51,876 nt of DNA. Origin: Saprospiraceae bacterium. GTDB taxonomy: Bacteria > Bacteroidota > Bacteroidia > Chitinophagales > Saprospiraceae. Below the pieces are notes generated by a model. The model made no database searches and was not told the DNA's origin. It saw nothing but the letters and a program-made list of their open reading frames with translations. The position numbers and the translations under genes were made by a program. The stretch covers positions 1 to 51,876 of the forward strand of contig JAHDCJ010000025.1 in the NCBI GenBank assembly GCA_020629935.1. Reading direction: 5' to 3'. Of the stretch, positions 1-47,130 are shown in pieces. Each line of letters starts with the position of its first letter. Positions within the stretch are counted from its first letter, which is position 1.

Positions 1-4
1 TTAG

Positions 5-76
5 GGTGAAACCGGGAATCGAACCCTGTTCCTCGCATTCACAGCGCGACGCATTACCAAATATGCTAATCTCACC
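5..76 (-). tRNA. tRNA-His (GTG)
   Basis: The minus strand folds as a cloverleaf with a GTTCGATTCC T-arm and a CTGTGAA anticodon loop, so the anticodon is GTG. The 5' end begins GG and the 3' end finishes in C, which fits the extra G-1 opposite C73 that marks tRNA-His. The T stem carries one A-G mismatch, so the exact ends could shift by one base. No CCA is encoded. It is the leftmost visible member of the array. Confidence 0.9.
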
Positions 77-90
77 ATTTAAATTATTCG

Positions 91-164
91 TTGTGATGGG
101 TGGTCTCGAACCACCGACCTTTCGGGTATCAGCCGACTGCGCCAACCTACTGCGCCACATCACA
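91..164 (-). tRNA. tRNA-Ile (GAT)
   Basis: Full cloverleaf: the 7-bp acceptor opens with T1-A72, the D stem is GCGC/GCGC, the loop is CTGATAC (anticodon GAT), and the discriminator is A73. The top anticodon-stem pair is G-A. In many bacteria tRNA-Ile(GAT) lies in rRNA operons; here it sits in an array with no rRNA in view. Confidence 0.9.
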
Positions 165-204
165 ATTTTACTTTTTACTTGATTGGGTTAGCGATGTGTA
201 ACCG

Positions 205-284
205 TGGGCTGCAAGCCCAGATTCAGCTTTGCTGAAGCCGAGCGTTTAGCGAGCGGTGAAACGTAGCGCCGAGCTTTAGCTCGG
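205..284. repeat. Cluster of perfect short palindromes between two tRNAs
   Basis: Within 80 bp there are three perfect hairpins: TGGGCT/AGCCCA (205-219, loop GCA), TTCAGC/GCTGAA (222-236, loop TTT) and CCGAGCT/AGCTCGG (269-284, loop TT). Between them lies a CGTTT/AAACG pairing. The stretch is more GC-rich than its surroundings and has no T-tract after any stem, so it does not look like ordinary terminators. It may be a palindromic repeat element or an RNA-processing region. No second copy is seen in this window. Confidence 0.7.
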
Positions 285-304
285 AACCCCCAAATAAAAA
301 ATAG

Positions 305-376
305 AGCGAACAGTGAGGATCGAACTCACTCCTCCGACGTGGCATGCCGGTATACTGCCAATGATACGATATTCGC
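305..376 (-). tRNA. tRNA-Gly (GCC)
   Basis: Acceptor GCGAATA pairs with TGTTCGC, the D stem is GTAT/ATAC, and the anticodon loop ATGCCAC gives GCC. The discriminator is T73, as expected for bacterial tRNA-Gly. The T arm is GTGAG/CTCAC. No CCA is encoded. Confidence 0.92.
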
Positions 377-382
377 TTATCG

Positions 383-454
383 AGCTGTTGGAGGGATTTG
401 AACCCACAATCTCCTGATTACAAGTCAGGTGCAATACCCTTATGCTACAACAGC
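383..454 (-). tRNA. tRNA-Thr (TGT)
   Basis: Acceptor GCTGTTG pairs with CAACAGC, the anticodon arm is CCTGA/TCAGG, and the loop CTTGTAA gives TGT. One T-T mismatch lies in the T stem. Only 6 bp separate it from the preceding tRNA-Gly(GCC) gene. Confidence 0.92.
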
Positions 455-486
455 TTCAAATTATAAACTAATTAACCAAAACCTAG

Positions 487-573
487 CGGAAACGGTGGGA
501 TTCGAACCCACGACTCGAGTCAACGAGCTACCTGTTTTCAAGACAAGCTCCTCATGCCGCCCGGATCATTTCC
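487..573 (-). tRNA. tRNA-Ser (TGA)
   Basis: This is a class II tRNA with a long variable arm (CTCG/CGAG pairing). The anticodon loop CTTGAAA gives TGA, the acceptor GGAAATG pairs with CGTTTCC, and the discriminator is G73. The long arm and G73 fit serine identity. Confidence 0.93.
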
Positions 574-582
574 AATATATTG

Positions 583-670
583 CGGAAGATACAGGATTCG
601 AACCTGTGTCACGGAATGACCGTGAACCGTACCTTTCCAAGGCAGTACAATACCGCTCTGTCAATCTTCC
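583..670 (-). tRNA. tRNA-Ser (GGA)
   Basis: Class II tRNA with a variable arm in which TCACGG pairs with CCGTGA. The anticodon loop TTGGAAA gives GGA, the acceptor GGAAGAT pairs with ATCTTCC, and the discriminator is G73. It lies 9 bp from tRNA-Ser(TGA), and together the two read the UCN box. Confidence 0.92.
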
Positions 671-676
671 GGTTTG

Positions 677-760
677 TGGAAAAGGTAGGACTCGAACCTA
701 CAAGATCAAATGATGCCTGTTTTACAGACAGGTACGCTACCGATTACGTGCTACTTTTCC
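677..760 (-). tRNA. tRNA-Tyr (GTA)
   Basis: Acceptor GGAAAAG pairs with CTTTTCC, the anticodon arm is CCTGT/ACAGG, and the loop CTGTAAA gives GTA. The variable arm is extended, as in bacterial tRNA-Tyr, and the discriminator is A73. Confidence 0.93.
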
Positions 761-770
761 ATTCCTAATT

Positions 771-847
771 TGGTGCCTTCGGTAGGATTCGAACCTACGA
801 CCATCTGGATGTAAACCAGGCACTCTGGCCAACTGAGTTACGAAGAC
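771..847 (-). tRNA. tRNA-Val (TAC), with encoded CCA
   Basis: Acceptor GTCTTCG pairs with CGAAGGC, the loop TTTACAT gives TAC, and the discriminator is A73. This is the only member of the array whose 3' CCA is in the DNA (771-773 on plus reads TGG). All the others need CCA addition. Confidence 0.94.
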
Positions 848-862
848 GATTTAAAATAATTG

Positions 863-934
863 AAGTCATACAAGGAATCGAACCCTAATCTCCGGAGTCG
901 TATTCCGGTATTTTTCCATTTAAACTATACGACC
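863..934 (-). tRNA. tRNA-Arg (ACG), weak D arm
   Basis: The anticodon arm CCGGA/TCCGG with loop ATACGAC gives ACG, which would need A34-to-inosine editing by TadA. The acceptor GGTCGTA pairs with TATGACT using G1-T72 and G5-T68 wobbles. The discriminator is T, unusual for arginine, and the D arm is A/T-rich with little pairing. The gene call is sound, but the molecule looks less canonical than its neighbours. Confidence 0.8.
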
Positions 935-1106
935 ATAAATGGGCTTTTATTTAAGCCCGGATCTAGCGATCTAGAATATGATGTCTTCTGTCATCATGGA
1001 TGTCCGTGAAGTGGACATGCCCATTTCTATTCGCGTAGACACTGCGATTAAAATAATAATTGATGTAATCATTGGTTTTTGGTTTTGTTTTGTAATTAAA
1101 ATTTAG

Positions 1107-1181
1107 TGGACCTCTAGAGAATCGAACCCTACTCAACCGGTATGCAAAACCAGTTCGCCTTGCCTTGGAACATGGAAGCCC
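1107..1181 (-). tRNA. tRNA-Ala (TGC)
   Basis: Acceptor GGGCTTC pairs with GAGGTCC and contains G3-T70, the G3:U70 pair recognised by alanyl-tRNA synthetase. The anticodon arm CTGGT/ACCGG with loop TTTGCAT gives TGC and can extend to 7 bp. The discriminator is A73. The 172-bp spacer before tRNA-Arg holds several small hairpins. Confidence 0.9.
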
Positions 1182-1206
1182 TTGTTTAATTTTTTTTAAA
1201 AAATAT

Positions 1207-1242
1207 GGGGAAGTGATCGGAAATTTTCAGATCACATGCCCC
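1207..1242 (-). terminator. Intrinsic terminator inside the tRNA array
   Basis: Read on minus, GGGG and GTGATC pair with GATCAC and CCCC around an 11-nt loop, and a run of T follows (plus-strand A-run just below 1207). It lies between tRNA-Leu and tRNA-Ala. If active, the array is split into at least two transcription units. Confidence 0.6.
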
Positions 1243-1378
1243 TTGAATTTATAGTGATTACTTACTCAGTACATTCGATTAAATTAATCGATAGTCCTAG
1301 GTAAGAAGTTTGTCAATGAACAATGTTCAAAATGTGAAAACCGGAAAATTTCGGGTTTCCAACATTCTTAAAAAATAG

Positions 1379-1459
1379 TACCAATGGTGGGAGTCGAACC
1401 CACAATCCTTGCGGACACGGTTTCTAAAACCGCTACGTATACCGTTTCGCCACACTGGC
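1379..1459 (-). tRNA. tRNA-Leu (TAG)
   Basis: Class II tRNA: acceptor GCCAGTG pairs with CATTGGT (G1-T72 wobble), the loop TTTAGAA gives TAG, a long variable arm is present, and the discriminator is A73, as expected for leucine. Confidence 0.92.
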
Positions 1460-1489
1460 ATTTAAGAATAATAATACCTCATTTTGTAG

Positions 1490-1539
1490 GGAGCCGGTTG
1501 TTTGCAAAATCTATTTTATGCTAAACCTCTACCGGCTCC
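1490..1539. repeat. 9-bp inverted repeat in a tRNA spacer
   Basis: GGAGCCGGT (1490-1498) pairs perfectly with ACCGGCTCC (1531-1539) around a 32-nt A/T-rich loop. No T-tract follows on either side, so it is a stable stem rather than a clear terminator. It lies between tRNA-Leu(TAG) and the first tRNA-Pro copy. Confidence 0.6.
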
Positions 1540-1566
1540 GTCAATTTTGAAGGCATTGTCTTTTAG

Positions 1567-1643
1567 TCCAAATTGTAGGATTCGAACCTACATCTCCTGG
1601 AGTCCAAGTCCAGCGCTTTAAAACCTTATTAAGCTAAATCTGG
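1567..1643 (-). tRNA. tRNA-Pro (TGG), copy 1
   Basis: Acceptor CCAGATT pairs with AATTTGG, giving C1-G72 with A73, the bacterial prolyl-tRNA synthetase identity set. The D stem is GCTT/AAGC and the loop CTTGGAC gives TGG. It is one half of a near-duplicate pair with 1791-1867. Confidence 0.88.
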
Positions 1644-1673
1644 AGATTTAAATAAACGATACATTTATCGTTT
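1567..1673 (-). repeat. Duplicated tRNA-Pro plus hairpin unit, copy 1
   Basis: The tRNA-Pro gene and the AAACGATA/TATCGTTT hairpin on its 5' flank (1654-1673) recur together at 1791-1896 with most bases unchanged. This indicates a segmental duplication of about 105 bp within the array, with tRNA-Asp left between the copies. Confidence 0.75.
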
Positions 1674-1675
1674 AG

Positions 1676-1748
1676 CGGTCCAGACGGGACTCGAACCCGC
1701 ATAACCCAGATAGACAATCTAGTCGGCTTCCATTGCCATCACAAGACC
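1676..1748 (-). tRNA. tRNA-Asp (GTC), unusual
   Basis: Acceptor GGTCTTG pairs with CTGGACC apart from one T-T mismatch. The anticodon arm CTAGA/TCTGG with loop TTGTCTA gives GTC, and the discriminator is G73, as for Asp. Two things are odd: base 37 is T where a purine is nearly universal, and the D arm is a shifted 3-bp GGC/GCC stem. It may be a diverged but working gene or a decaying copy. Confidence 0.78.
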
Positions 1749-1790
1749 ATTGTTGTTGCTTCTCATCATAAAGAGAAGGCTAGTTTTTTG

Positions 1791-1867
1791 TCCAAATTGT
1801 AGGGTTCGAACCTACATCTCCTGAATTCCAAATCCAGTGCTTTTAGTCCTTATTAAGCTAAATCTGG
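1791..1867 (-). tRNA. tRNA-Pro (TGG), copy 2
   Basis: Same architecture as copy 1, with acceptor CCAGATT/AATTTGG, C1-G72, A73, and loop TTTGGAA giving TGG. The differences from copy 1 fall in the anticodon stem and the D loop. Confidence 0.86.
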
Positions 1868-1896
1868 TGATTGATTTAAACGATACCTTTATCGTT
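1791..1896 (-). repeat. Duplicated tRNA-Pro plus hairpin unit, copy 2
   Basis: Second copy of the unit described at 1567-1673, again ending in an AACGATA/TATCGTT hairpin (1879-1896). The shared flank shows that more than the tRNA itself was duplicated. Confidence 0.75.
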
Positions 1897-1909
1897 AATT
1901 TTAATATAG

Positions 1910-1983
1910 AGCGAGTAGTCGGATTCGAACCGACATCACCAGGGTGGAAGCCTAGCATCTTAAACCATTAATACGATACTCGC
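1910..1983 (-). tRNA. tRNA-Gly (TCC)
   Basis: Acceptor GCGAGTA pairs with TACTCGC, the loop CTTCCAC gives TCC, and the discriminator is T73. The acceptor and D arm resemble tRNA-Gly(GCC) in the same array, suggesting a shared origin. Confidence 0.92.
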
Positions 1984-2184
1984 TTAAACGGAGAGGTTGT
2001 GTGCACTTTTCCCTGTGAAACAATCCTCCTCCGAGGAAGTGACTTTGATGCCTCGAAATCACTTTAAAATAGAGACTTATCTACCGCAAATAAGAGGTCT
2101 CTTGGATATCGGTTTCCATACCGAATCCGTTCAGCAATCCTTTGAAAGCTGTTTAATTTTCTAGTACAAAAAGTAATAGATAAG
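1984..2184. other. Hairpin-rich 201-bp tRNA spacer
   Basis: No gene is seen here. The stretch is filled by successive stems: a bulged GGAG(A)GGTTGT / ACAATCCTCC stem, AAGTGA/TCACTT, CTTAT/ATAAG beside GAGAC/GTCTC, and GGAT+TCGGT / ACCGA+ATCC. It lies between tRNA-Gly(TCC) and tRNA-Lys. Confidence 0.55.
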
Positions 2185-2257
2185 TGGACGTAGTAGGACT
2201 CGAACCTACGACTCCCTGATTAAAAGTCAGGTGCTCTACCAACTAAGCTATACATCC
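2185..2257 (-). tRNA. tRNA-Lys (TTT)
   Basis: A textbook cloverleaf. The acceptor GGATGTA pairs with TACGTCC, the D arm is AGCTTAGTTGGTAGAGC, the loop CTTTTAA gives TTT, and the discriminator is A73. Confidence 0.95.
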
Positions 2258-2358
2258 ATCTTGCGGTTATAAAATACCAATGAAGGTTTAAGGTAAGTAC
2301 ATTTGCCTTTGTCTTAACTTGTTGATATACAGCGTAAGTGTATATCAAAAAACCTTTG

Positions 2359-2430
2359 CGGGCCCGGTAGGGGTTGAACCTACGACCTGACGGTTAACAG
2401 CCGCCTGCTCTACCGCTGAGCTACAAACCC
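2359..2430 (-). tRNA. tRNA-Asn (GTT)
   Basis: Acceptor GGGTTTG pairs with CGGGCCC through three T-G wobbles. The anticodon arm GGCGG/CCGTC with loop CTGTTAA gives GTT, and the discriminator is G73. It is the first gene of the array in transcription order. The spacer to tRNA-Lys carries a GATATAC/GTATATC hairpin. Confidence 0.94.
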
Positions 2431-2881: not shown

Positions 2882-5800
2882 TTATCCATTTATTATATTG
2901 ATCTTTTGGATGAGTTGTTTACAAGTGTCTTTTGGATGCTTCCACCAATCTACAGACCAAGTGGTTATATAATGGTAACCTGTTTCTTTTAATACTTTTT
3001 TAATGTAACTATTCCAATAGGGAGCATGTTTAAATTGATCTAAAAAGTCATCTACTTGAATTAAGATGGGTTGGCTTAGATTATCTTTTGGTTCAATATA
3101 GATATCAAAACAAAGGTCAGCGAGTTTTGGAAAAACTTTTATTCTGGTGGGTTCTAATTTTTCTTTTAGTCGGTGGACTATTTCCATGACCATTTCATTT
3201 CTTAGGGGTTGGGAATTTTCAAAAGAGAGGAAAGGTGTCATGTTTTTTGAAAACAGATTTCTTTCTTTGTGCGCGATAAATAAATAATCAGCTAATAGTT
3301 GTAGGCCTTGTTGATTTTCTAATTGGTTGATTTGTTGATATAAATAATCTACTTCAATAGAAGAGAATACGGTAATTTTTTGTGCGGGATAAAAAGAAAG
3401 GTATTGGAGGTGTTGAATATTATCTTCTTGATTGAGTCGAAGAAGATTAGGATGCAATCCTTGTGTTTTACTATCAAAAGTAAAAGAGATAAATAAGGTT
3501 GAAAAATTAAATCGCATCAAATCTTTAGGGAGACAAAGTTGATATTCGATGCCTTTGTTTTCTAGGCTTTTTTTGTAAATATTTAATGCTTTGTTGGCGG
3601 CTTTTAATTGACCTTCAGAAAAGCAAAGAATTCCTAATTTACTATTGGCAGGTAGTTTGTGTATGGCAATTAGTATGGCTTCAATTTCTTTTGGATTATC
3701 TTCATTTTCTGAAGAATAATTGCCATCTACTTGATAGACTCTCACTTGCGTATTTTCCTTTGATAAGGGATAATAGACCAATTGATCTTTCCACGCTTTA
3801 TCTCTTGCAAATAGAGCAAAAGGTGTTGGGCTTTGGTGGTTAATAATTAATGAGATTTGGTGGAAATGTTGAAAGGAGGTAGGCGGATTTTTTTTATCTA
3901 AATTTCCAAAAGCAATGATATTGGAAAATTTTCCTAGATTATTTTCTAAAGATTTTTGTTCGATTTTTTCTAGATTATCTATAAGTAGTACGTTGGGTGT
4001 TTCTAAGTCTTTGGGTAATAATTTAGTAGCACATTCTGGGCTTAGTAATAAAATTGGAAAGCATTGATGGATGAAATTAAAGTCTTTAGTAGCGAGTTCT
4101 TTTAGTGTAGATTCAGCGACAAAAGCGCTGGACTGATTGCCAAATAATTGTTGATATCGGGTTTTGTTGTTTTGTTTGAGTTGATTAATATAAAAGGCTC
4201 TAGAATGATTAAAGTCATTTTTTACTTGCGATGCAATTTGGGAATTTTGAGTGGCTAATTGTGTCTCGAAAGATTTCAATAGATTTTCATCATGTGGAAT
4301 TTCTTTCCGATAGCGCGTATCGAGCACATGATGTAAATACCAACTTTTAAAAGCTGCGATCCAGTGATTAGAGTGGACTTGAATTAAGGCTTGAAAAACC
4401 AATTTTGTTGGTTCAGAGCAAGCAAGCCAAAATTTGTTCCAAGGATAAAGATCTTGAAAAGCGCCCCGATTAGAATCAACAATTTCGAGTTGATGTAGAA
4501 GTTGTTTGAGATGAATTTGTTTTTCTTGTAATCCTTTTTCTTTTTCTTCGATTTCTATGATGTGCGCGGTATTTATTTTCTGAATAAGTTGACTATATTC
4601 TTCTTCAAAAATATTGATTTTGGATTTATAATTTGGTGGACTAAACTGGGTAGAGTTGTTTTCAATAATGGTTTGTACGTGATTAGGAATACGAACTTTC
4701 CAATCATTTAAAGCATCAATAAAACGGTTGATGTTGAGCACCATTTCGTCAATTTGATTGCTGTCTTCATTTTCAAAAATAAAAGGAATGAATCGATGAC
4801 TTTTGTGTTCTTTAACTAATTCAGTATAGCTTTTTTTGATTGCATTTTGTGCCTGAATAATATTCTTTTGTCTTTTTTGAAAAATACTTTTTATACGAAG
4901 TTTAGTTTGTTTATAGGCCGTGTTTCCAGAAAATTCGGTTCCATATTGGAGATCATAATCTTGAATTTCTTCTTTTAAATTTTGTGCTTTTAGTAGACAA
5001 GATTCAAAATGGGTTTCATAAAGATTTTTTAAATCGGTGGCATACGATTGATTTAGGGCAATGGCTTCGTGGTATAAAGCAGCGGCTTCTTTTTGGAGTA
5101 TAGGTAGATGCTTGTCTAATTGATTTTGTGCTTGATCTAAGTCAAATGTTTGGAATAGATTAGGATGTAAAATTTGCAAGGGATGATCTAGGCGATTGAC
5201 CTTTTTATATAAGGATTCTCCATCTTGGATATCTTGGCTAATACGTTCAAATTCAAGGAGATTGAATTGGAATTGTTTGGGATTTAGTTCGCTGTTAAGG
5301 AGTTCTCGTTGTTCTATTTTTTGAAAAGATAAAAAATGACTAACTACTTCAATCCATCGTTTGCTACCAAAGACTAAGTGATCTAATTGATGAAGTCCAA
5401 TTTGGAGATGTTGTTCATTCCTTTGGTTTTGATTAAGTAAAACTTCCCAATCTACAGGATCTTCTTGGGGATTATTTGGACTAAGATTTATTTGTTTAAA
5501 TTGTTGGATGACTTTATTGAAATCATAACTATCGTTGGCAATAAGAAGGCTTAAATCTTTAATTCCAATTTCGTGCAAATATTCTTGAATTTTGGATAGC
5601 GTTTCTTCTACCTCTGCTATAATAACAACCTTTTGTTGATTATAGAGTAAGGTAGTGGCGAGATTGGCAAGGGTATAGGTTTTCCCTGTTCCTGGAAGTC
5701 CAGAAACCAAAATATTTGGATGCGTATTAAATAAATGAAAAAGTTGTCCTTGATCTGGACTTACATTTAATGCTTGGAAGAGATGTCGAATATGGAGGGT

Positions 5801-5908
5801 AGATTGATGGGGTTGAGGTAAAGCTGATTCTATATCTTTTGCTTCACTTATTGGGTGATCATGTCCAAAACCGACTTGAATATCATTTGGTATATCTTCT
5901 TTTTCCAT
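2882..5908 (-). CDS. SF1 helicase-like P-loop protein with C-terminal Vsr-like nuclease domain
   Basis: This 1008-residue protein has a clear Walker A (GLPGTGKT, about residues 70-77) after a short N-terminal region. The middle is long and helix-rich. A weak Walker B-like stretch reads VLLIDNLEK. Where Upf1-type helicases carry the arginine-finger motif (SRAR before VFSS), this one reads SFYPAQKITVFSS, so the helicase core looks degenerate. The last ~100 residues resemble the Vsr/MTES_1575 nuclease fold fused to large SF1 helicases: FDIYI, ILIQVDD and TTWSVDWW match the usual IDLAV, IECDG and RIWSxDW. The start is the ATG at 5908; a TTG two codons earlier is also possible. Such fusions are common in bacterial defence genes, but nothing else defence-related is adjacent. 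The function is inferred. Confidence 0.7.
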   Translation of the reverse strand: MEKEDIPNDIQVGFGHDHPISEAKDIESALPQPHQSTLHIRHLFQALNVSPDQGQLFHLFNTHPNILVSGLPGTGKTYTLANLATTLLYNQQKVVIIAEVEETLSKIQEYLHEIGIKDLSLLIANDSYDFNKVIQQFKQINLSPNNPQEDPVDWEVLLNQNQRNEQHLQIGLHQLDHLVFGSKRWIEVVSHFLSFQKIEQRELLNSELNPKQFQFNLLEFERISQDIQDGESLYKKVNRLDHPLQILHPNLFQTFDLDQAQNQLDKHLPILQKEAAALYHEAIALNQSYATDLKNLYETHFESCLLKAQNLKEEIQDYDLQYGTEFSGNTAYKQTKLRIKSIFQKRQKNIIQAQNAIKKSYTELVKEHKSHRFIPFIFENEDSNQIDEMVLNINRFIDALNDWKVRIPNHVQTIIENNSTQFSPPNYKSKINIFEEEYSQLIQKINTAHIIEIEEKEKGLQEKQIHLKQLLHQLEIVDSNRGAFQDLYPWNKFWLACSEPTKLVFQALIQVHSNHWIAAFKSWYLHHVLDTRYRKEIPHDENLLKSFETQLATQNSQIASQVKNDFNHSRAFYINQLKQNNKTRYQQLFGNQSSAFVAESTLKELATKDFNFIHQCFPILLLSPECATKLLPKDLETPNVLLIDNLEKIEQKSLENNLGKFSNIIAFGNLDKKNPPTSFQHFHQISLIINHQSPTPFALFARDKAWKDQLVYYPLSKENTQVRVYQVDGNYSSENEDNPKEIEAILIAIHKLPANSKLGILCFSEGQLKAANKALNIYKKSLENKGIEYQLCLPKDLMRFNFSTLFISFTFDSKTQGLHPNLLRLNQEDNIQHLQYLSFYPAQKITVFSSIEVDYLYQQINQLENQQGLQLLADYLFIAHKERNLFSKNMTPFLSFENSQPLRNEMVMEIVHRLKEKLEPTRIKVFPKLADLCFDIYIEPKDNLSQPILIQVDDFLDQFKHAPYWNSYIKKVLKETGYHYITTWSVDWWKHPKDTCKQLIQKINIING

Positions 5909-5920
5909 GAGCAAAAACTT

Positions 5921-7966: not shown

Positions 7967-8782
7967 TTAATTTCCTAAGATAAGTGGTAATCCACCACCT
8001 TCTCCACCTACAATGACTACTTTCGAGTTGGGTGATTGAGACAGTTCTAGTGTAGCTTCAATTCCTTTATCTTTAAGAATTTTGTCTGTCAAACTTTGAT
8101 TTAAGATTCTGTTTGCATCTGCTTTCGCTTGTGCTTCAATCACTTTACGCTCTGCTTCTTTACGTTCCTTGTCTAATCGGAATTCGTATTGCAAAGACTC
8201 TTGTTCTTCTTTTAATTTACGTTCAATTGCTGCTTGTAAGGATTGTGGAAGTGCAACCTCTCTAATCAATACGGCATCAATGGTTAAATATTTTTTGGTA
8301 ACTGCAGTAGAGGTGCGTGTAAAGATCTCATCTTGAATGGCTTCTCTTTTTGTAGAGTAAAGTTCTTCAGGTAGGTATTTACCAATAACTTCCCGAGTTG
8401 CCGAACGAATTTCTGGTTTAATGATCCGTTCTAAGTAGCTCGTTCCAATTTGATCATGTAGATAACCTACTTTATCTCCAATCGGTTGGTATCGATAAGA
8501 AAGTTCTACTTTAATGGTCAAACCATTTTTAGATAATACTTGCATAGATTCAAAAGCCTCATTGGTTCGAATATCATATCTAAAAATTCGATTCCATGGG
8601 GCGATCATGTGAAATCCTTGATCAAGGACTGCGTCTTTTTGAATACCACCTCCAAAACGTTTAAATATTACGCCTTTTTCACCCGCATTAATGGTATAAA
8701 AAATGCTGTTGGATAAGGCCACAATAACAAACAAGGAGATGAATACAATAACTCCTAATGTGGCTAATTTATTTTTTTTCAT
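7967..8782 (-). CDS. Prohibitin family protein (SPFH/band 7)
   Basis: The 271-residue protein starts with one transmembrane helix (about 9-29), then the SPFH/band 7 domain opening with AGEKGVIFKRFGGG and GFHMIAPW. A charged coiled coil follows around residues 190-230 (KLKEEQESLQYEFRLDKERKEAE), and the C-terminal stretch ends GGGLPLILGN. This order and length match bacterial and mitochondrial prohibitins, which form ring-like membrane scaffolds and modulate membrane proteases. It appears monocistronic, ending at the strong hairpin at 7891-7942. Confidence 0.93.
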   Translation of the reverse strand: MKKNKLATLGVIVFISLFVIVALSNSIFYTINAGEKGVIFKRFGGGIQKDAVLDQGFHMIAPWNRIFRYDIRTNEAFESMQVLSKNGLTIKVELSYRYQPIGDKVGYLHDQIGTSYLERIIKPEIRSATREVIGKYLPEELYSTKREAIQDEIFTRTSTAVTKKYLTIDAVLIREVALPQSLQAAIERKLKEEQESLQYEFRLDKERKEAERKVIEAQAKADANRILNQSLTDKILKDKGIEATLELSQSPNSKVVIVGGEGGGLPLILGN

Positions 8783-34747: not shown

Positions 34748-35650
34748 TTAAACCCAAGCTCTAGGTTGTATTAAAATGTCAACTAATTGCTGTTGTTCCT
34801 TATTGTTAGGTATGGCTTGATAAGCCCATTTTACAAGCGGAGGTAAACTCATGAAAATACTCTCAATGCGGCCTTTGGTTTTTAATCCAAATAAAGTCCC
34901 CTTGTCGTGAATTAAATTAAATTCTACATAACGACCTCTACGAATCAATTGCCATTCACGTTGTTCTGGTGTGTAAGTTTGATCTTTTCTATGGGTTAAA
35001 ATAGGAAGATAAGCAGTTAAGAATTGATTGCCCATTTGTTTTACAAAATCAAATTGATCTTGCAAAGACATACTTTCAGTTGGTTTTAAATAATCAAAAA
35101 ATATACCGCCCACGCCTCTGGCTTCTTCCCTGTGGTGGTTCCAAAAATATTGATCACAGGCTTCTTTAAATTTGGGGTAATAATCTTTATGATGTAAATC
35201 ACAGGTCGTTTTACATACCCTATGAAAATGCTTAATATCGGATTCATAAATGATATAAGGCGTTAAATCAATTCCGCCACCTAGCCATTGATTGACGATG
35301 TTTTTATCTTCGTCATAAAGTTCGAAATAACGAAAATTGGCATGTACGGTAGGCGCATGAGGATTTACAGGATGTAAAACCAAACTGATGCCACAAGCAA
35401 AAAAATCATCTTCTTCTACCCCCAATTGTTTGGTCATGGCAGGAGACAATTTACCATGCACCGCAGAAGTGTTGACTCCTCCTTTTTCAATCACTTGTCC
35501 ATCGGATAAAATACGGGTTTTACCACCACCGCCACCTGGTCGATCCCAAAGGTCTTCTTGAAACTTTTTCGAAGGTTCTAGGCCTTCAAGTGCTTCGGTG
35601 ATCTTATCTTGTAGACTATAAATAAATGTTAGAAATTCCGATTTTATCAT
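34748..35650 (-). CDS. hemF: Oxygen-dependent coproporphyrinogen III oxidase
   Basis: HemF decarboxylates coproporphyrinogen III to protoporphyrinogen IX using O2. The 300-residue protein contains WDRPGGGGGKTRILSDG, HGKLSPAM, VHANFRYFE, GGGIDLTPYI, RGVGGIFFDY and GRYVEFNL, the family blocks in order. It is the last gene of the minus-strand heme run and starts 3 bp after hemE. Use of the aerobic enzyme, with no hemN here, indicates an aerobic lifestyle. Confidence 0.97.
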   Translation of the reverse strand: MIKSEFLTFIYSLQDKITEALEGLEPSKKFQEDLWDRPGGGGGKTRILSDGQVIEKGGVNTSAVHGKLSPAMTKQLGVEEDDFFACGISLVLHPVNPHAPTVHANFRYFELYDEDKNIVNQWLGGGIDLTPYIIYESDIKHFHRVCKTTCDLHHKDYYPKFKEACDQYFWNHHREEARGVGGIFFDYLKPTESMSLQDQFDFVKQMGNQFLTAYLPILTHRKDQTYTPEQREWQLIRRGRYVEFNLIHDKGTLFGLKTKGRIESIFMSLPPLVKWAYQAIPNNKEQQQLVDILIQPRAWV

Positions 35651-35653
35651 GGT

Positions 35654-36688
35654 TTATACTTCTAAAGCTTGGTAGTTTTTTACTGTATCAAAAAAGGCCT
35701 TCACATTATCTAATGGGGTCTTTGGTGTAATACCATGTCCTAGGTTAACAATGTAATGTTGATGCCCAAATTCACCAATCATTTGGTTAACTTTATTGGT
35801 GATTAATGTAGGGTTCGATAATAAATACGAAGGATCGAGATTACCCTGTAAAACACGCTTGGAGTCCACTAAACTTCTTGCTGTTTTTGGAGCACAAGTC
35901 CAATCAATACCAATAGCAGATGCTTTACTTTTATTAAATTCATTCATGGCAAACCAACAACCTTTTCCATACATGATCACAGGGACTTGGTCTTCTAATG
36001 CATCAATGATTCGGTTAAGATAGGGCCAAGAATATTTTAAATAATCTTCTGGAGAAAGAATGCCTCCCCAAGAATCAAAGAGTTGAATGACATCTGCTCC
36101 TGCTTTAATTTTTCCTTTTAAATATTCAATGGTGGTTTCTGTTAATTTATCTAAAAGTAGATGTGCGGCTTCTGGTTCGTTGAAACAAAATTGCTTTGCT
36201 AATTCAAAGACTTTACTTCCTCTTCCTTGAACAATATAACATAATAAAGTCCAAGGTGAACCTGCAAAGCCTATTAATGGTACTTGACCTTCTAACTTCT
36301 CTTTGGTCATTTTTATCGCATCAAAAACATAGCCTAAACTTTCATTCACTTCTGGAATAATCACTTGATCTAAATCCTTCAAACTCCGTACAGGATTAGG
36401 AATGACAGGGCCTACATTGGGCACCATTTGTACTTCAATATTCATGGCCTGAGGAATGACTAAAATATCAGAAAACAAAATGGCTGCATCCATTCCATAT
36501 CTACGGATAGGTTGAATGGTAATTTCAGAGGCTAACTCTGGGGTTTGACATCGAGTGAAAAAATCATATTTTTCTCTAATCTTTATATATTCTGGTAAAT
36601 ATCTTCCTGCTTGACGCATCATCCAAACAGGTGGCCGAGAAGTCGCTTCTCCATTTAAGACGCGAAGAAATAAATCATTTTTTATCAT
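35654..36688 (-). CDS. hemE: Uroporphyrinogen decarboxylase
   Basis: HemE removes four acetate carboxyls from uroporphyrinogen III. The 344-residue protein has [17 protein letters not shown] near the N terminus, [30 protein letters not shown] and [10 protein letters not shown]. The arginine and aspartate of the active site are present. The gap from hemL is 35 bp. Confidence 0.97.
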
Positions 36689-36723
36689 GGCTTAAAATTA
36701 TATCGTATAATGAAAAGGGGCAA

Positions 36724-38022
36724 TTAAAATTTGGTTGTACTTAATTTTTTAATGGCTTTGTGAATAGCCATTTGCGTATGCTTTATTTCTTTCTTAGTTA
36801 GTGTGGTACATAAGAACCAAGATTCAAAAGCAGAAGGAGGAAGGAAGATTCCTTCATTCATCATTTCCCAAAAGAACACTTTATAATAATGCGTATGGCT
36901 TTGTTTTACATCATCAAAGTTTCTTACTTTTTTATTGGTAAAGAAAGGGTTAATCATAGATCCAAAGTGATTCACTTGAATCGGAATGTTATTTTGTTTG
37001 CTCGCTTCTTTAAATGTATTTTTAAGTCGTTTTCCCACCTTATTAAAGAAAGGATAAGGGTTAGATTTTTTTAATTCTTTAAGTGTGCTAATACCTGCCG
37101 CCATTGCAATTGGATTTCCACTTAAAGTTCCTGCTTGATACATATTTCCTAAAGGCGCAACTAGGTTCATAATTTTATTACTCGCTGCATAGGCACCTAC
37201 AGGGAAACCTCCTCCAATCACTTTTCCTAAACAAAAAATATCTGGTTTAACATCGTAGAAATCAATAGCAGCACCGAACTTCGCACGGAAGCCTGTCATC
37301 ACCTCATCCGCAATAAGCAAGGCGTCATTTTTCTTTAATAGGGCATGTAATTTTTTGAGGAAATTATTTTGAGGAAGTACCACACCCATATTTCCCGTTA
37401 CGGGTTCTATAATAGCCGCGGCAATATCATCATGTTTTTTGAATAGGGCTTTTACGCTTTCTATATCATTATAATTGGCAACTAAAGTATTACGCACAGA
37501 TTCTTTGGGCACACCCGCGCTTGTAGGCATACTTAAGGTAGCTAATCCAGAACCTGCCTGTACCAAAAGACTATCAGCATGGCCATGATAACAACCTACA
37601 AATTTAATGATTTTTGATTTTTTAGTATAAGCTCTAGCTAATCGCAACGCGCTAAATACCGCTTCTGTTCCTGAGTTGACAAAACGAACCTTATCTACTC
37701 CTGGTAAGGCATTGGCTACGATCTCTGCAAGTTCAATTTCCTTTTCTGTAGAAGCGCCAAAAGTGTATCCTTTGCTTAATGTTTTTCCAATCGCTTTGGC
37801 TACTTTCTTATGTTGATGGCCTAAGATCATTGGGCCATAAGAAAGGACAAAATCGATATATTCGTTTTGATCTACATCATAGATTTTACTTGCCTTCGCA
37901 TGATCAATAAAAATTGGATTTCCTCCCACAGAATTAAAGGCACGGACGGGAGAATTTACTGCGCCTACAAGATGTTTTTTTCCTTTTTTAAAAAGAATAC
38001 TGGATTGATTATACGTTCTCAT
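36724..38022 (-). CDS. hemL: Glutamate-1-semialdehyde 2,1-aminomutase
   Basis: A PLP enzyme converting glutamate-1-semialdehyde to 5-aminolevulinate. The 432 residues include GAVNSPVRAF, NSGTEAVFSALRLAR, CYHGHAD, ADEVMTGFR and LGKVIGGGFPVGAY, where the Lys binds PLP. The family-typical YQAGTLSGNPIAMAAG is present. It lies 11 bp after hemB. Confidence 0.96.
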   Translation of the reverse strand: MRTYNQSSILFKKGKKHLVGAVNSPVRAFNSVGGNPIFIDHAKASKIYDVDQNEYIDFVLSYGPMILGHQHKKVAKAIGKTLSKGYTFGASTEKEIELAEIVANALPGVDKVRFVNSGTEAVFSALRLARAYTKKSKIIKFVGCYHGHADSLLVQAGSGLATLSMPTSAGVPKESVRNTLVANYNDIESVKALFKKHDDIAAAIIEPVTGNMGVVLPQNNFLKKLHALLKKNDALLIADEVMTGFRAKFGAAIDFYDVKPDIFCLGKVIGGGFPVGAYAASNKIMNLVAPLGNMYQAGTLSGNPIAMAAGISTLKELKKSNPYPFFNKVGKRLKNTFKEASKQNNIPIQVNHFGSMINPFFTNKKVRNFDDVKQSHTHYYKVFFWEMMNEGIFLPPSAFESWFLCTTLTKKEIKHTQMAIHKAIKKLSTTKF

Positions 38023-38033
38023 TGATATTATTT

Positions 38034-39002
38034 TTAATCTCGTTTTAATAAACGAGCAATGTCTTTTGCGAAATAAGTAATAATTAAATCGGCCCCTGCA
38101 CGCTTCATGGAGAGATGCGTTTCTAAGATGATTTTTTCTTCATTGAGCCATCCTTTTTCGGCCGCAGCTTTTATCATGGCGTATTCTCCACTCACATGAT
38201 AGCAAGCCAATGGGGTTTGAAATTCATTTTTCAAATCTCGAATCATATCTAGGTAAGAGAGTGCTGGTTTTACCATTAATATATCTGCTCCTTCACTTGC
38301 GTCAATGGCTGCTCTAAGTATCCCTTCATTTCTGTTTGCTGGGTTTAATTGATAGGCATTTCGATCTCCAAAAGAAGGACTAGAATCTGCGGCATCGCGG
38401 AAGGGGCCGTAGTACGCAGAAGCATATTTTACCGCATAAGACATGATGGGTAAATTCACAAATTGATGTTCGTCTAAAATAGATCGAATGGCTTGAATAG
38501 TTCCGTCCATCATTCCTGAAGGAGCAATCATGTCTGCCCCAGCTTGTGCATGAGAAAGCGCCTGTTTTTGAATATTAACCAAAGTTAAATCATTGTCTAC
38601 TTGCTCGTCTTTAATTACCCCACAATGGCCATGATCGGTATATTCACAGAAGCAAACATCGGTGATGATATATAAAGAAGGATAGTGTTTTTTTATCCAT
38701 CGAATCGATTGTTGAATAATACCTTGGTCATCCCAAGTAGAAGATCCACAATCGTCTTTCTTACTTGGAATTCCAAAAAGTAATATTGCAGGAATTTTTA
38801 GTTCGATGACTTGATCTAATTCATTTGCCAATTGATCTAAAGAGTATCGGTGAATGCCCGGCATACTTTCAATAGGCTTATTAATATCATTCCCTTCTTC
38901 AATAAAAATCGGATAAATCAAGTCTTCGACATGCAGCTTGGTTTCTGCTACCATATTTCGAATCGCTTGATTTTTTCGTAGTCGTCTCGTTCGATTAATC
39001 AT
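38034..39002 (-). CDS. hemB: Delta-aminolevulinic acid dehydratase (porphobilinogen synthase)
   Basis: HemB joins two 5-aminolevulinates into porphobilinogen. The 322 residues show DVCFCEYTDHGHCG, the cysteine-rich site of zinc-dependent enzymes, plus the Schiff-base lysines in SYAVKYASAYYGPFR and MVKPALSYLD. Its start overlaps the hemCD stop by 8 bp, suggesting translational coupling. Confidence 0.97.
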   Translation of the reverse strand: MINRTRRLRKNQAIRNMVAETKLHVEDLIYPIFIEEGNDINKPIESMPGIHRYSLDQLANELDQVIELKIPAILLFGIPSKKDDCGSSTWDDQGIIQQSIRWIKKHYPSLYIITDVCFCEYTDHGHCGVIKDEQVDNDLTLVNIQKQALSHAQAGADMIAPSGMMDGTIQAIRSILDEHQFVNLPIMSYAVKYASAYYGPFRDAADSSPSFGDRNAYQLNPANRNEGILRAAIDASEGADILMVKPALSYLDMIRDLKNEFQTPLACYHVSGEYAMIKAAAEKGWLNEEKIILETHLSMKRAGADLIITYFAKDIARLLKRD

Positions 39003-40563
39003 AGTGTGATTTTACTAATTGTAGTACGCCTTCAATACTTGGATCTTTGGGGAAGTGTACGTTGTCGAAATGTTTTCTCGCTTCTTTAGCGGTGGTTTCT
39101 CCAATGCAAAAAGCAATTTTATTTTTGATGTTATTTAAAACATAATAACTTTTTACCGCAGAAGGACTAAAGAATAAAACCGCTTCATGGGCTGCTTCTA
39201 TGGCTATTGGACTAAGAATAGTTTTGTATACATGGATCTCATTGATTTTAATCCCATTGGCAGTTAAAAGTTGAGGAAGCGTAGAAAGTCTTTGTTGGCC
39301 AGAAATAAATGTAAGTGAATGCTCACTTTTGTTTTTAATGACAAAGTCGGCTAATTTTTTAGCATTATTTTCTACATGAATATTTGCTTGGGTTAAGGTA
39401 GATAATGCGTTTTTTGTTTTTTCTCCCACACAATAAATCGTAGTGAATTTTTCAAAGAAATGAGGGGCTTTTTCTAGCACGACTTGAATCGCATTTTTAC
39501 TTGAAATGATCAATGGCAATTGGAAGTCAACAGTGGAAAGATCAAAGTCAAGCGCTTCTATTTTTATGAAATCATTGGCTAATAATTGTAAGGAAGGAGG
39601 GAATAATTCTATTTGTGATTTATGAAGTTTCTTTGTAGAATAGATAGTGGCAGTATGTGCTGATCTTTTAAGTTGGTCTAATATTTTTTGCCCTCCATTT
39701 ATTTTTATTTGATCAACAGCCCATGCGGCTATTTGATTGGCATCTTCTAAAGGAAAATCGCGAGTAACTTCTACTTGTTGTTTTCCGTCTAGCGAATTTA
39801 ATCTACCTTTAAAATAAATAGTTTGTTGTTTAATTTCGGCTAATGCTCCAATAGGGGCAGAGCATCCACCTTCTAAAAGGTTTAAGAATCGGCGTTCAAT
39901 TTGTGTACAGATTTCACTATCCGAATGGTTTAATATCTTTCGAATATTTGCGGTTAAATTAAATGTAGTTAAGGCCGTTACCCCAATCGCGCCTTGTCCT
40001 GGAGCGGGAACCATCCATTCTAAATCTATATATTGGTTACTCGTTATTTCTAAACGATGAATGCCCGCTTTAGCTAAGATAAGTCCATCACATAGGCTTG
40101 CATTTAATTTTTGAATGCGCGTAGGTACATTGCCGCGGATACCTTCGGTTTTATGACTAGGGAAACGATGTAACCATTGTGCGCTTCTTCGGATACTTCC
40201 TGTGGCAATCGTACTATGCGCTGAACATTCGTCTACACCATTTTTCAATACTAAAACATCAGTAGGCGTTGCGCGTTCAAGAATAGCAATTTGTTCGATC
40301 CCTTCTGGAGAAACAGTGGGTAAATCTTTTAGCGAATGGACGGCGATGTCGATTTCATTATTATATAATGCTTGATCTAATCTTTTGGTAAAAACGCCCG
40401 TAAAACCAATTTTATTTAATGGCGTTTTTTGATCTAAATCTCCTGCGGATTTTAGTAAGACCAATTCTGATTCCACACCCAAAACGAATAATTTATCTTT
40501 AACTAAATTGGCTTGGTACAGGGCGAGTTGACTATCTCTTGTTCCAATTCGTATTTTATTCAT
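38995..40563 (-). CDS. hemCD: Fused hydroxymethylbilane synthase / uroporphyrinogen-III synthase
   Basis: The 522 residues hold two enzymes. Residues 1 to about 300 are HemC: IGTRDSQLALYQA, SLKDLPT, LERATPTDVL, GSIRRSAQWL, GIRGNVPTR and EGGCSAPIGA with the dipyrromethane-anchoring Cys. Residues about 300 to 522 are HemD, recognisable by ISSKNAIQ, FISGQQR and LFFSPSAVKSYY. The fusion would pass the unstable hydroxymethylbilane directly to the ring-closing domain. It overlaps hemA upstream and hemB downstream by 8 bp each. HemD is divergent in all species, so its boundary is approximate. Confidence 0.93.
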   Translation of the reverse strand: MNKIRIGTRDSQLALYQANLVKDKLFVLGVESELVLLKSAGDLDQKTPLNKIGFTGVFTKRLDQALYNNEIDIAVHSLKDLPTVSPEGIEQIAILERATPTDVLVLKNGVDECSAHSTIATGSIRRSAQWLHRFPSHKTEGIRGNVPTRIQKLNASLCDGLILAKAGIHRLEITSNQYIDLEWMVPAPGQGAIGVTALTTFNLTANIRKILNHSDSEICTQIERRFLNLLEGGCSAPIGALAEIKQQTIYFKGRLNSLDGKQQVEVTRDFPLEDANQIAAWAVDQIKINGGQKILDQLKRSAHTATIYSTKKLHKSQIELFPPSLQLLANDFIKIEALDFDLSTVDFQLPLIISSKNAIQVVLEKAPHFFEKFTTIYCVGEKTKNALSTLTQANIHVENNAKKLADFVIKNKSEHSLTFISGQQRLSTLPQLLTANGIKINEIHVYKTILSPIAIEAAHEAVLFFSPSAVKSYYVLNNIKNKIAFCIGETTAKEARKHFDNVHFPKDPSIEGVLQLVKSHYD

Positions 40564-41800
40564 TATTGTTTAATGTTGAAAGTTGTTCGCCGAGGTCCTG
40601 AATGGTTTTGGCTAAATGGGTCGCTTCTTGTTTATCGCTTTTAATATTTTTAGCAATTTTAGAAATTACTTTTTGAATATAATCTGAAATTTTATCTTCC
40701 ACTTGTTGATTGAGTTCATCCGAAAGATGGGTCGCATTTTTTTGAGTAGTTTCTATCTTTACTGCATCTAAAAAAGATTTAATTTTTCCGATAGATTGGG
40801 TTTGTTTACGTTCTTGTTTCCAAAGCAAAAATTCTTCAATATGAGATTCAATAATTTCTTTGGCTTTAGGAATATATTTTTTGCGTTCGGCTAAGGTGTC
40901 TTGGACTGCTTTAGAAATAAGATCTAAATCAACAAGACGAATATCTTTTTGCTGACCTAAAGCTTTATCAATGTTATTTGGAATAGAAAGATCAATAAAT
41001 AAACTTCCTTGTTTAATTTGATCTTGCGTCGTAATGATAGGTTCTGGTGCATTGGTACACACAATAACAATATCAAATGTGGAAAGCGTTTCTTTTAACG
41101 CATTGAATTCAAGCACATTCACTTTAGCATGTTGGGCTAGTTTTTTTACCGTATCATTATGTGAACGATTGCAAATGTAGAGTTGATTTAAACCGCTATA
41201 GGTAATCATATTCTCTACTACTTTTTTCCCAATGTTTCCTACACCTAAAATTAGCGCCTTAGTATCGGTATGGATTTGCTTATTGGTAAGTAAGTATTGC
41301 ACTGCCGCATAAGAAACTGAGGTCGTGCCTGTGCTCAATTTGGTATTGTTCTTTACTGCTTTGCTACAAGTAAATACTTTGTTTACTAACTTCTCGGTAA
41401 AAGTGTCTACACCATGATTTTTCTTAGCAGAATAGAAGGCTTGTTTGAATTGACCTACGATTTCATAATCTCCAAGGATTTGACTATCTAAACCAGAAAC
41501 TACACGAAAAATATGTCGAACCGCTTCTTTATCTTTATATATATAGACTTCTTTTTTTAGTTGATCGAGATCAACCTTTAATACCGATTGCCAATAATCA
41601 AGAAGTTGATCACTAGAAATTCCATTACCAATGAGTTCTGTTCGGTTACAGGTAGAAAGGAGGATTAAAGATGACTGACCCTCTTCTTGAGCTTTTGCAT
41701 AAAGTTGGGTTTGAAGCGCAGGAGTAAGACTATAATTAGATCTTACTTGCGTGTCATTATTTCGAAAATTTATTCCCACCACAGAAAAACTACTCATCAT
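40556..41800 (-). CDS. hemA: Glutamyl-tRNA reductase
   Basis: HemA reduces glutamyl-tRNA to glutamate-1-semialdehyde, the entry to the C5 heme route. The 414 residues include LLSTCNRTELIG with the catalytic Cys, GLDSQILGDYEIVGQ, the NADPH fold ALILGVGNIGKKV, CNRSHNDT and a coiled dimerisation tail. It is first in the minus-strand run. Its promoter may use the TACCTTTA box at 41854-41861. Confidence 0.96.
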   Translation of the reverse strand: MMSSFSVVGINFRNNDTQVRSNYSLTPALQTQLYAKAQEEGQSSLILLSTCNRTELIGNGISSDQLLDYWQSVLKVDLDQLKKEVYIYKDKEAVRHIFRVVSGLDSQILGDYEIVGQFKQAFYSAKKNHGVDTFTEKLVNKVFTCSKAVKNNTKLSTGTTSVSYAAVQYLLTNKQIHTDTKALILGVGNIGKKVVENMITYSGLNQLYICNRSHNDTVKKLAQHAKVNVLEFNALKETLSTFDIVIVCTNAPEPIITTQDQIKQGSLFIDLSIPNNIDKALGQQKDIRLVDLDLISKAVQDTLAERKKYIPKAKEIIESHIEEFLLWKQERKQTQSIGKIKSFLDAVKIETTQKNATHLSDELNQQVEDKISDYIQKVISKIAKNIKSDKQEATHLAKTIQDLGEQLSTLNNNE

Positions 41801-46593: not shown

Positions 46594-47130
46594 TTAACTA
46601 CGTGAAGGATAAGTTCCTTCTAAGGCAATGATGTAATTAAGTGCGAGATAAGGTTGCATATTATTATGCGAGCTATTACCTCCAGTGTGTCCTGTAGTAA
46701 TATTTTTGACGGAGTTCGCATTCAGTACTGCGTCTGGTGTTTGATCAGAATAAATTTCACTAGACCCTAATACGTTACCTTCCACATCTTCAGAATCAGC
46801 GGAGCCACTATTACCATGTAATTCTGCACTACCACCAATGTGATGATGTGAAGGAATTTCATTAACGGTAAGTGTTACGTTTTCTTGGCCACTTTTTTGA
46901 CCTAAAGGACGCGGGGTTAATCCAGGGCCGTGACCTGCATGAATAGGCACTCGACCTCTTAATGATGGTAAACCAAAAGTTGTTCGCCCGTCACCACCAT
47001 AAGTAGTTCCTAAAATAGAAAATAAGGCAGAGTTGCTATTAATGTCCATGAGCTGCCCATCGCAAAGTGCCCAACCACGAGGGGCAAAATTTCCAGCAAA
47101 TAAAATAATTTGACCAATAAATGGATCCAT
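46594..47130 (-). CDS. Tail-collar (microcystin-dependent-type) protein
   Basis: The 178-residue protein has the collar domain start FAPRGWALCDGQLMDINSN, then LFSILGTTYGGDGRTTFGLPSLRGRVP, the usual signature, and ends HNNMQPYLALNYIIAL. Such proteins are found as phage tail-fibre parts and also as free-standing exported or contractile-system components in Bacteroidota. No phage gene is near and there is no signal peptide, so prophage origin is not supported. Confidence 0.87.
   Translation of the reverse strand: MDPFIGQIILFAGNFAPRGWALCDGQLMDINSNSALFSILGTTYGGDGRTTFGLPSLRGRVPIHAGHGPGLTPRPLGQKSGQENVTLTVNEIPSHHHIGGSAELHGNSGSADSEDVEGNVLGSSEIYSDQTPDAVLNANSVKNITTGHTGGNSSHNNMQPYLALNYIIALEGTYPSRS

Follow-up and report, generated by a model that had tools for sequence, protein, structure and literature searches.

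The trn operon of Anabaena sp. PCC 7120, which comprises 26 transfer RNAs (tRNAs) and lies on a megaplasmid, is normally silent and aids survival under translational stress (PMC10272220). In Mycobacterium, tRNA array units are redundant chromosomal arrays, few members of which are highly similar to housekeeping copies (PMC5966550). GOLLD is an RNA cage often found near tRNA islands, and tRNAs have been named as its possible cargo (PMC12286853); GOLLD is also reported from mycobacterial tRNA arrays (Morgado 2020, as cited in PMC12286853). Among archaeal tRNA gene clusters, mostly from haloarchaea, 20 of 29 contain a TROVE gene, which was left without interpretation (PMC6333295), while the text on the Anabaena operon names neither TROVE nor Ro60. 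In phage tRNAs, changes of the anticodon loop have been proposed to evade nucleases (PMC10264068). Here, we analysed a tRNA array located in a 51,876-base contig of a Saprospiraceae bacterium from the phylum Bacteroidota (GenBank assembly GCA_020629935.1, contig JAHDCJ010000025.1). This whole contig, G000:C43 in our naming, is hereafter referred to as the window, and the genome as G000. The results support the view that the array is accessory and is not the main tRNA locus.

The array has 17 tRNA genes in positions 4-2430, every one on the minus strand, at a density of about 7 per kb, when the results of ARAGORN and Rfam are united. Each program found 16 genes; ARAGORN overlooked the Asp-like gene 1676-1748, which Rfam found on the minus strand, and Rfam overlooked the tRNA-Ala gene 1106-1181. 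As counted in a preliminary description of the sequence, the genes cover 16 anticodons and 14 amino acids, and Met, Phe, Trp, Cys, Glu and Gln are without a gene. For comparison, two whole relatives have 48 tRNA matches each, in 5.1 Mb and 7.0 Mb, respectively. The tRNA-His gene is 4 bases from the end of the contig and, since the window is the whole contig, the array stands at a contig end; it plausibly extends past the left edge. With 17 genes in 2.43 kb, it exceeds the minimum of 15 tRNA genes and 2 genes per kb that was applied in a viral survey (PMC6409571). The definition of an array unit sets the minimum at 20 tRNA genes, with the same density (PMC5966550); here 17 are visible and the contig ends at the array, and the sister arrays L419 and L420 hold 25 and 26 genes, respectively.

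The preliminary description had proposed either the main tRNA locus of the genome or a redundant array, and the results speak for the second and against the first. Redundancy was tested by a tRNA search of G000, in which 150 of 428 candidates were scored, and in the relatives G140 and G003. The search gave at least 38 matches, of which 16 are the array, about 15 are housekeeping tRNAs, and the remainder are further odd blocks. Housekeeping copies of the same anticodon exist elsewhere in G000 for His-GUG, Leu-UAG, Arg-ACG and Ser-GGA, together with a truncated Thr-UGU. Two contig ends (C142:1-65 and C44:51575-51653) interrupt the housekeeping Thr-Tyr-Gly-Thr-tuf cluster, so that the lack of housekeeping genes is due at least in part to gaps in the assembly. 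As several housekeeping isotypes are absent from the assembly, redundancy in G000 is direct for some isoacceptors only. In the relative G003, whose genome is 100% complete, there are a 9-gene array and two blocks, Phe-Gln-Glu-Met-Lys and Leu-Leu-Ser, together with housekeeping copies elsewhere for 8 of the 9 array anticodons.

The earlier picture of an isolated locus was incomplete, as G000 has further odd blocks and the arrays of relatives are tied to Ro60/TROVE and GOLLD. The odd blocks consist of Phe, Gln, Met, Trp and Gln (C77:8204-8619), of Ser-GCU and Leu-UAA (C16:6186-6364), and of one odd Glu next to a housekeeping Glu (C37:28267 onwards). The blocks and the array jointly cover 19 of the 20 amino acids, Cys having no spare gene, and the other amino acids absent from the array are supplied by the blocks on C77 and C37. 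The Phe, Gln, Met and Trp of the C77 block also have housekeeping copies of the same anticodon in G000.

The array tRNAs have diverged from the housekeeping tRNAs, to which they are 51-74% identical. For comparison, housekeeping tRNAs are conserved between genera, with identities of 80-99% for nine pairs of G000 and G140 and a median of 84% in a second comparison. Most window array tRNAs are closer to tRNAs of other Saprospiraceae arrays; their best match in another array of the family or order mostly has an identity of 67-87%, as the best of many. The tRNAs are thereby related to those of Ro60-linked arrays. Furthermore, Ala, Asp, Tyr and Trp have unusual arms that are common to the spare set of G000 and the array of G140, including odd D arms in Ala and Asp. 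Stem pairs are intact in 399 of 408 cases in the array tRNAs, and where both bases differ between array tRNAs of the same anticodon, pairing is kept in 1339 of 1372 cases, with 40% expected at random. Because the stems are intact and compensated, the array genes are under selection and are not pseudogenes, and the earlier impression that they look functional is supported. The synthetase identity features named in the preliminary description also agree with the sequences: G3:U70 in Ala, C1:G72 and A73 in Pro, G73 in Ser and Asp, and U73 in Gly. Positions 37/38 of the anticodon loop differ from the housekeeping tRNAs in His, Arg-ACG, Gln, Phe, Leu-UAG, Asp, Pro, both Gly, Val and Met.

The window array belongs to a family of arrays. 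A BLAST search with the array over 100 relatives found further arrays, two of which hold vWA/TROVE genes. TROVE was found in 21 of the 150 Saprospiraceae genomes searched, many of which have a same-strand tRNA array directly upstream (23 tRNAs in L098, 25 in L092, and 10 in each of L105 and L112). A scan of species genomes with a TROVE alignment gave 80 Ro60 loci. The fetched sequence includes a tRNA at 41 of them, and three or more co-oriented tRNAs lie upstream at 30; 328 tRNAs were co-oriented versus 12 opposed. In the Ro60 loci without tRNAs, no known Rfam family reached its gathering threshold. Ro60-linked arrays were found in Saprospiraceae, Chryseobacterium and Verrucomicrobia, and IMG/VR contigs also have the association, with up to 37 tRNAs. 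The D-arm signature of the window tRNA-Ala was found in 13 of 398 Saprospiraceae genomes, compared with 3 for a reversed control pattern, and a tRNA array is located at the signature site in 7 of the 12 relatives that carry it. Gene order is partly conserved, with a longest common subsequence of 10 between the window and L419 (shuffled mean 6.4, p 0.003). No flanks are shared between G003 and the window array or the C77 and C16 blocks. The pattern that would have indicated an ordinary conserved locus, the same order in close relatives with no duplicates, was thus not seen: order is conserved in part, and the one relative checked does not share synteny of the flanks. In another family of the order, a 482-amino-acid vWA protein (L055:11143-12591) stands beside a 15-tRNA array. 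It is possibly a divergent Ro60-like partner; its match to the Ro60 profile, with a probability of 88, covers the vWA part only.

GOLLD (RF02032) was found by Rfam inside the arrays L051, L054 (two copies), L059, L092, L419, L420 and L422; most of these matches are slightly under the curated cut-off, but their E-values are 1e-29 to 1e-42. It was not found in L052, L053, L055, L057, L098, L401, L421, L423 and L424, nor in the window array or the C16, C37 and C77 regions, which were the parts of G000 searched. The tRNAs, GOLLD and Ro60 occur together in L054 and L092. In Verrucomicrobia, the arrays L150 and L174 have GOLLD as well as YrlA-like RNAs just before Ro60, giving a row of GOLLD, tRNA array, YrlA-like RNA and Ro60. 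The sister arrays L419 and L420 serve all 20 amino acids and have GOLLD inside, while the fetched 13 kb had no Ro60 match. In these two arrays, which are from one Saprospiraceae genus, GOLLD lies mid-array (L419:6835-7356 and L420:7133-7653) with a tRNA of UCA anticodon embedded. In L051, L054, L419, L420 and L422, the array tRNA closest to GOLLD on one of its sides is His. As His is also the last tRNA before the contig end in the window, a GOLLD is predicted just beyond the contig edge.

Comparison with the described systems shows both likenesses and differences. Like the Anabaena trn operon (PMC10272220), the window array is a dense one-strand array that is redundant with housekeeping tRNAs; however, the Anabaena operon is plasmid-borne and has the repressor TrcR, whereas the window array is on a chromosomal contig and has no known regulator. 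The mycobacterial array units are similar in their redundancy, their chromosomal location and the paucity of members that closely resemble housekeeping copies, and GOLLD is found in arrays of both kinds, being known here from the related arrays, but the window lineage is Bacteroidota, and the related arrays add Ro60 and YrlA-like RNA. The archaeal clusters share the TROVE gene beside the tRNA cluster, while the arrays described here are bacterial and often have GOLLD. Phage tRNAs resemble the window array in their loop changes relative to host tRNAs, but they are phage-encoded and were compared with known nucleases (PMC10264068), and no nuclease is known for the window array. The bacterial rsr-yrlBA-rtcBA RNA repair operon (PMC7790460) likewise combines a Ro60 family protein with a Y RNA and is linked to tRNA damage; in the relatives, by contrast, the Ro60 gene comes after the tRNA arrays and no rtcBA was noted next to it. 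In Anabaena, rtcB is co-regulated with the trn operon, and G000 has RtcB too. As the RtcB gene, on contig C24, has no tRNAs near it, it was rejected as an array partner. RNA repair is reportedly the subject of a 2016 review by Burroughs and Aravind.

By analogy with these systems, we propose, at what we consider an even chance of being right, that the array is a spare tRNA set, divergent yet intact, which serves as a reserve under tRNA attack or translational stress, and of which the window has the 5' part. The array would be transcribed leftwards as one precursor and cut at its hairpin-punctuated spacers into single tRNAs. These would retain their synthetase identity elements, become charged, and take over once housekeeping tRNAs are cleaved by anticodon nucleases (from phages, rivals or defence systems) or once translation comes under some other stress. 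In genomes that have them, Ro60 with YrlA-like RNA and the GOLLD cage may act as partners in quality control and storage; in G000 these partners may have been lost, or GOLLD may lie past the contig edge.

Several observations weigh against this proposal. No housekeeping gene for Lys, Asn, Gly, Tyr, Ile and some other isotypes was found among the scored candidates of the G000 assembly. Val and Leu-UAG are no nearer to array tRNAs than to housekeeping tRNAs; best-of-many identity comparisons favour the larger set, and when G140 is taken as the only array genome, the difference shrinks to 12 tRNAs closer to the array versus 4 that are not. The housekeeping bases at 37/38 are kept in eight array anticodons, those of Lys, Asn, Thr, Tyr, Trp and three Ser, and the Lys tRNA is the classical target of PrrC. 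Finally, neither a Ro60/TROVE gene in general nor one co-oriented with the window array was found in G000, of which about 5% is missing and whose window contig does not reach the 3' side of the array, and Ro60 was not found in the complete relative G003. Since both genomes carry arrays, Ro60 is not essential to them.

Other explanations of the array have to be considered. It is very improbable that it is the main, essential tRNA locus with the sole genes for these isoacceptors. The roughly 15 housekeeping tRNAs listed outside the odd blocks, which do not include Lys, Asn, Gly, Tyr or Ile, would suit such a locus, but the housekeeping His, Leu-UAG, Arg-ACG and Ser-GGA genes contradict it, the absences look like assembly gaps in view of the cut tuf cluster and the share of candidates scored, and the complete G003 has housekeeping copies for all but one of its array anticodons. 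It is unlikely that the array is left over from a phage or another mobile element and is passively kept or decaying. Phages bear comparable arrays, GOLLD and TROVE (PMC6409571, PMC7824862, PMC12286853), Ro60 stands with tRNAs on the IMG/VR contigs, and the array lies at non-syntenic sites in G000 and G003, all of which would fit a remnant, and an ancient phage origin of the array is possible. However, the stems are intact and compensated, the flanking genes are ordinary chromosomal ones, and a single tRNA signature leads to arrays in 7 other Saprospiraceae genomes. Moreover, phage and plasmid collections gave single-tRNA matches only, which cover at most 6% of the array among the matches listed.

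Compensation of codon usage or dosage, in which the extra tRNAs merely raise translation capacity, has a slim chance: the genes appear chargeable and redundant, as this would require, but ordinary anticodons are duplicated over nearly all amino acids instead of rare codons, and the array is strongly diverged and not amplified from housekeeping copies. We regard as quite improbable that the tRNAs are non-translational, acting as decoys (a nuclease sponge) or as RNA ligands or cargo of Ro60 and GOLLD. The anticodons and identity elements kept for nearly every amino acid would be needless in a decoy, and Ro60 was not found in G000. The link of related arrays to Ro60, YrlA-like RNA and GOLLD favours such a role, as does the finding that about 116 of 161 tRNAs in Verrucomicrobia arrays, across isotypes, have G and not U at position 55 of the T loop; the Saprospiraceae arrays, in contrast, keep a normal T loop. 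The Ro60-linked Verrucomicrobia arrays with G at this position are L148, L150, L152, L154, L157, L158 and L174. Inspection by eye of examples from these arrays also showed A in place of G at D-loop position 18 and a short variable loop in the Leu tRNAs.

The visible array, in which all tRNAs are accessory and all features are on the minus strand, begins with tRNA-Asn (GUU; 2358-2430), preceded by a folded leader (2431-2700, z -2.9) in which no consensus promoter was recognised; sigma-70 and Bacteroidota-type promoter patterns upstream of the array were in no excess over chance. It is followed by tRNA-Lys (UUU; 2184-2257), which is 87% identical to Lys of the L055 array, a hairpin-rich spacer of 200 nucleotides (1984-2183, z -3.0), and tRNA-Gly (UCC; 1909-1983) with U73. 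Two copies of tRNA-Pro (UGG), copy 2 at 1790-1867 and copy 1 at 1566-1643, enclose tRNA-Asp (GUC; 1676-1748), found by Rfam and not ARAGORN, with the loop UUGUCUA as in other Saprospiraceae arrays. Next are tRNA-Leu (UAG; 1378-1459), a hairpin-rich spacer of 196 nucleotides (1182-1377, z -4.7), and tRNA-Ala (UGC; 1106-1181) with G3:U70, whose signature D arm, ATGTNCCAAGGCAAGGCGA, is also found in other Saprospiraceae arrays. The tRNA-Arg (ACG; 862-934) is 63% identical to the housekeeping Arg-ACG on C71, and tRNA-Val (UAC; 771-847) has an encoded CCA. The tRNA-Tyr (GUA; 676-760) is 84% identical to Tyr of the Ro60-linked array of G140, tRNA-Ser (GGA; 582-670) is 57% identical to the housekeeping Ser-GGA on C65, and tRNA-Thr (UGU; 382-454), which comes after tRNA-Ser (UGA; 486-573), is 81% identical to Thr of the G003 array. 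The tRNA-Gly (GCC; 304-376), again with U73, is separated by a strongly folded palindromic intergenic repeat (165-303) from tRNA-Ile (GAU; 90-164) and tRNA-His (GUG; 4-76), which has the loop CUGUGAA versus the housekeeping UUGUGGU. An 85% identical copy of the repeat is located at G000:C28:50066-50184, and weaker matches occur in other Saprospiraceae. The window spacers fold more stably than shuffled sequences, with z values of about -2 to -5; mean values are -2.6 to -3.1 for other Bacteroidota array spacers, which also fold well, against -0.9 for ordinary intergenic regions of the window.

The right-hand flank of the array consists of ordinary chromosomal genes (SurE, LpxB, PorP-type secretion and others), and Rfam found no ribosomal RNA within the window. 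The lack of phage context noted in the preliminary description also held: phage genes, as around a prophage tRNA cluster, were not found beside the array on the right side, which alone is visible. A tail-collar-like protein (46594-47130; PHROG tail families) is 44 kb from the array, amid chromosomal genes. The neighbour of the array is an ATPase/helicase-like protein of 1010 amino acids (2882-5914, minus strand) with weak C-terminal similarity to the MTES_1575 nuclease; as tRNAs adjoin none of the 10 homologues checked, it was rejected as a partner, and no evidence was found for the SPFH protein (7967-8782) in this role. A run of haem biosynthesis genes (34748-41800, minus strand) was recognised by eye from the reading frames. 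Elsewhere in G000, contigs C142, C44, C157, C146, C158 and C80 terminate inside or next to housekeeping tRNA genes, and contig ends also coincide with several array loci, which suggests strain variation or integration at tRNA genes.

Separate publications have described tRNA arrays, the GOLLD of mycobacterial arrays and the TROVE genes of haloarchaeal clusters, while the Bacteroidota array family and the presence of GOLLD together with Ro60 in single arrays are new; a partial literature search found no paper that joins Ro60 with bacterial chromosomal tRNA arrays. More tentatively than for the spare set itself, we suggest that accessory tRNAs, the GOLLD cage, YrlA-like RNA and Ro60 may form a widespread ribonucleoprotein module that stores, checks and releases nuclease-resistant tRNAs upon destruction of housekeeping tRNAs. 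It would occur in Bacteroidota and Verrucomicrobia and partly in mycobacteria, haloarchaea and phages, and in G000 it would be split into blocks, without Ro60 and with GOLLD predicted beyond tRNA-His. The functions of GOLLD, bacterial Ro60 and tRNA arrays are at best partly known, and their occurrence in one operon-like chromosomal row (L054, L092, L150 and L174), with a matching spare set in the window genome, points to a shared job. It raises the testable question of whether such a module sustains translation while tRNAs are under attack.

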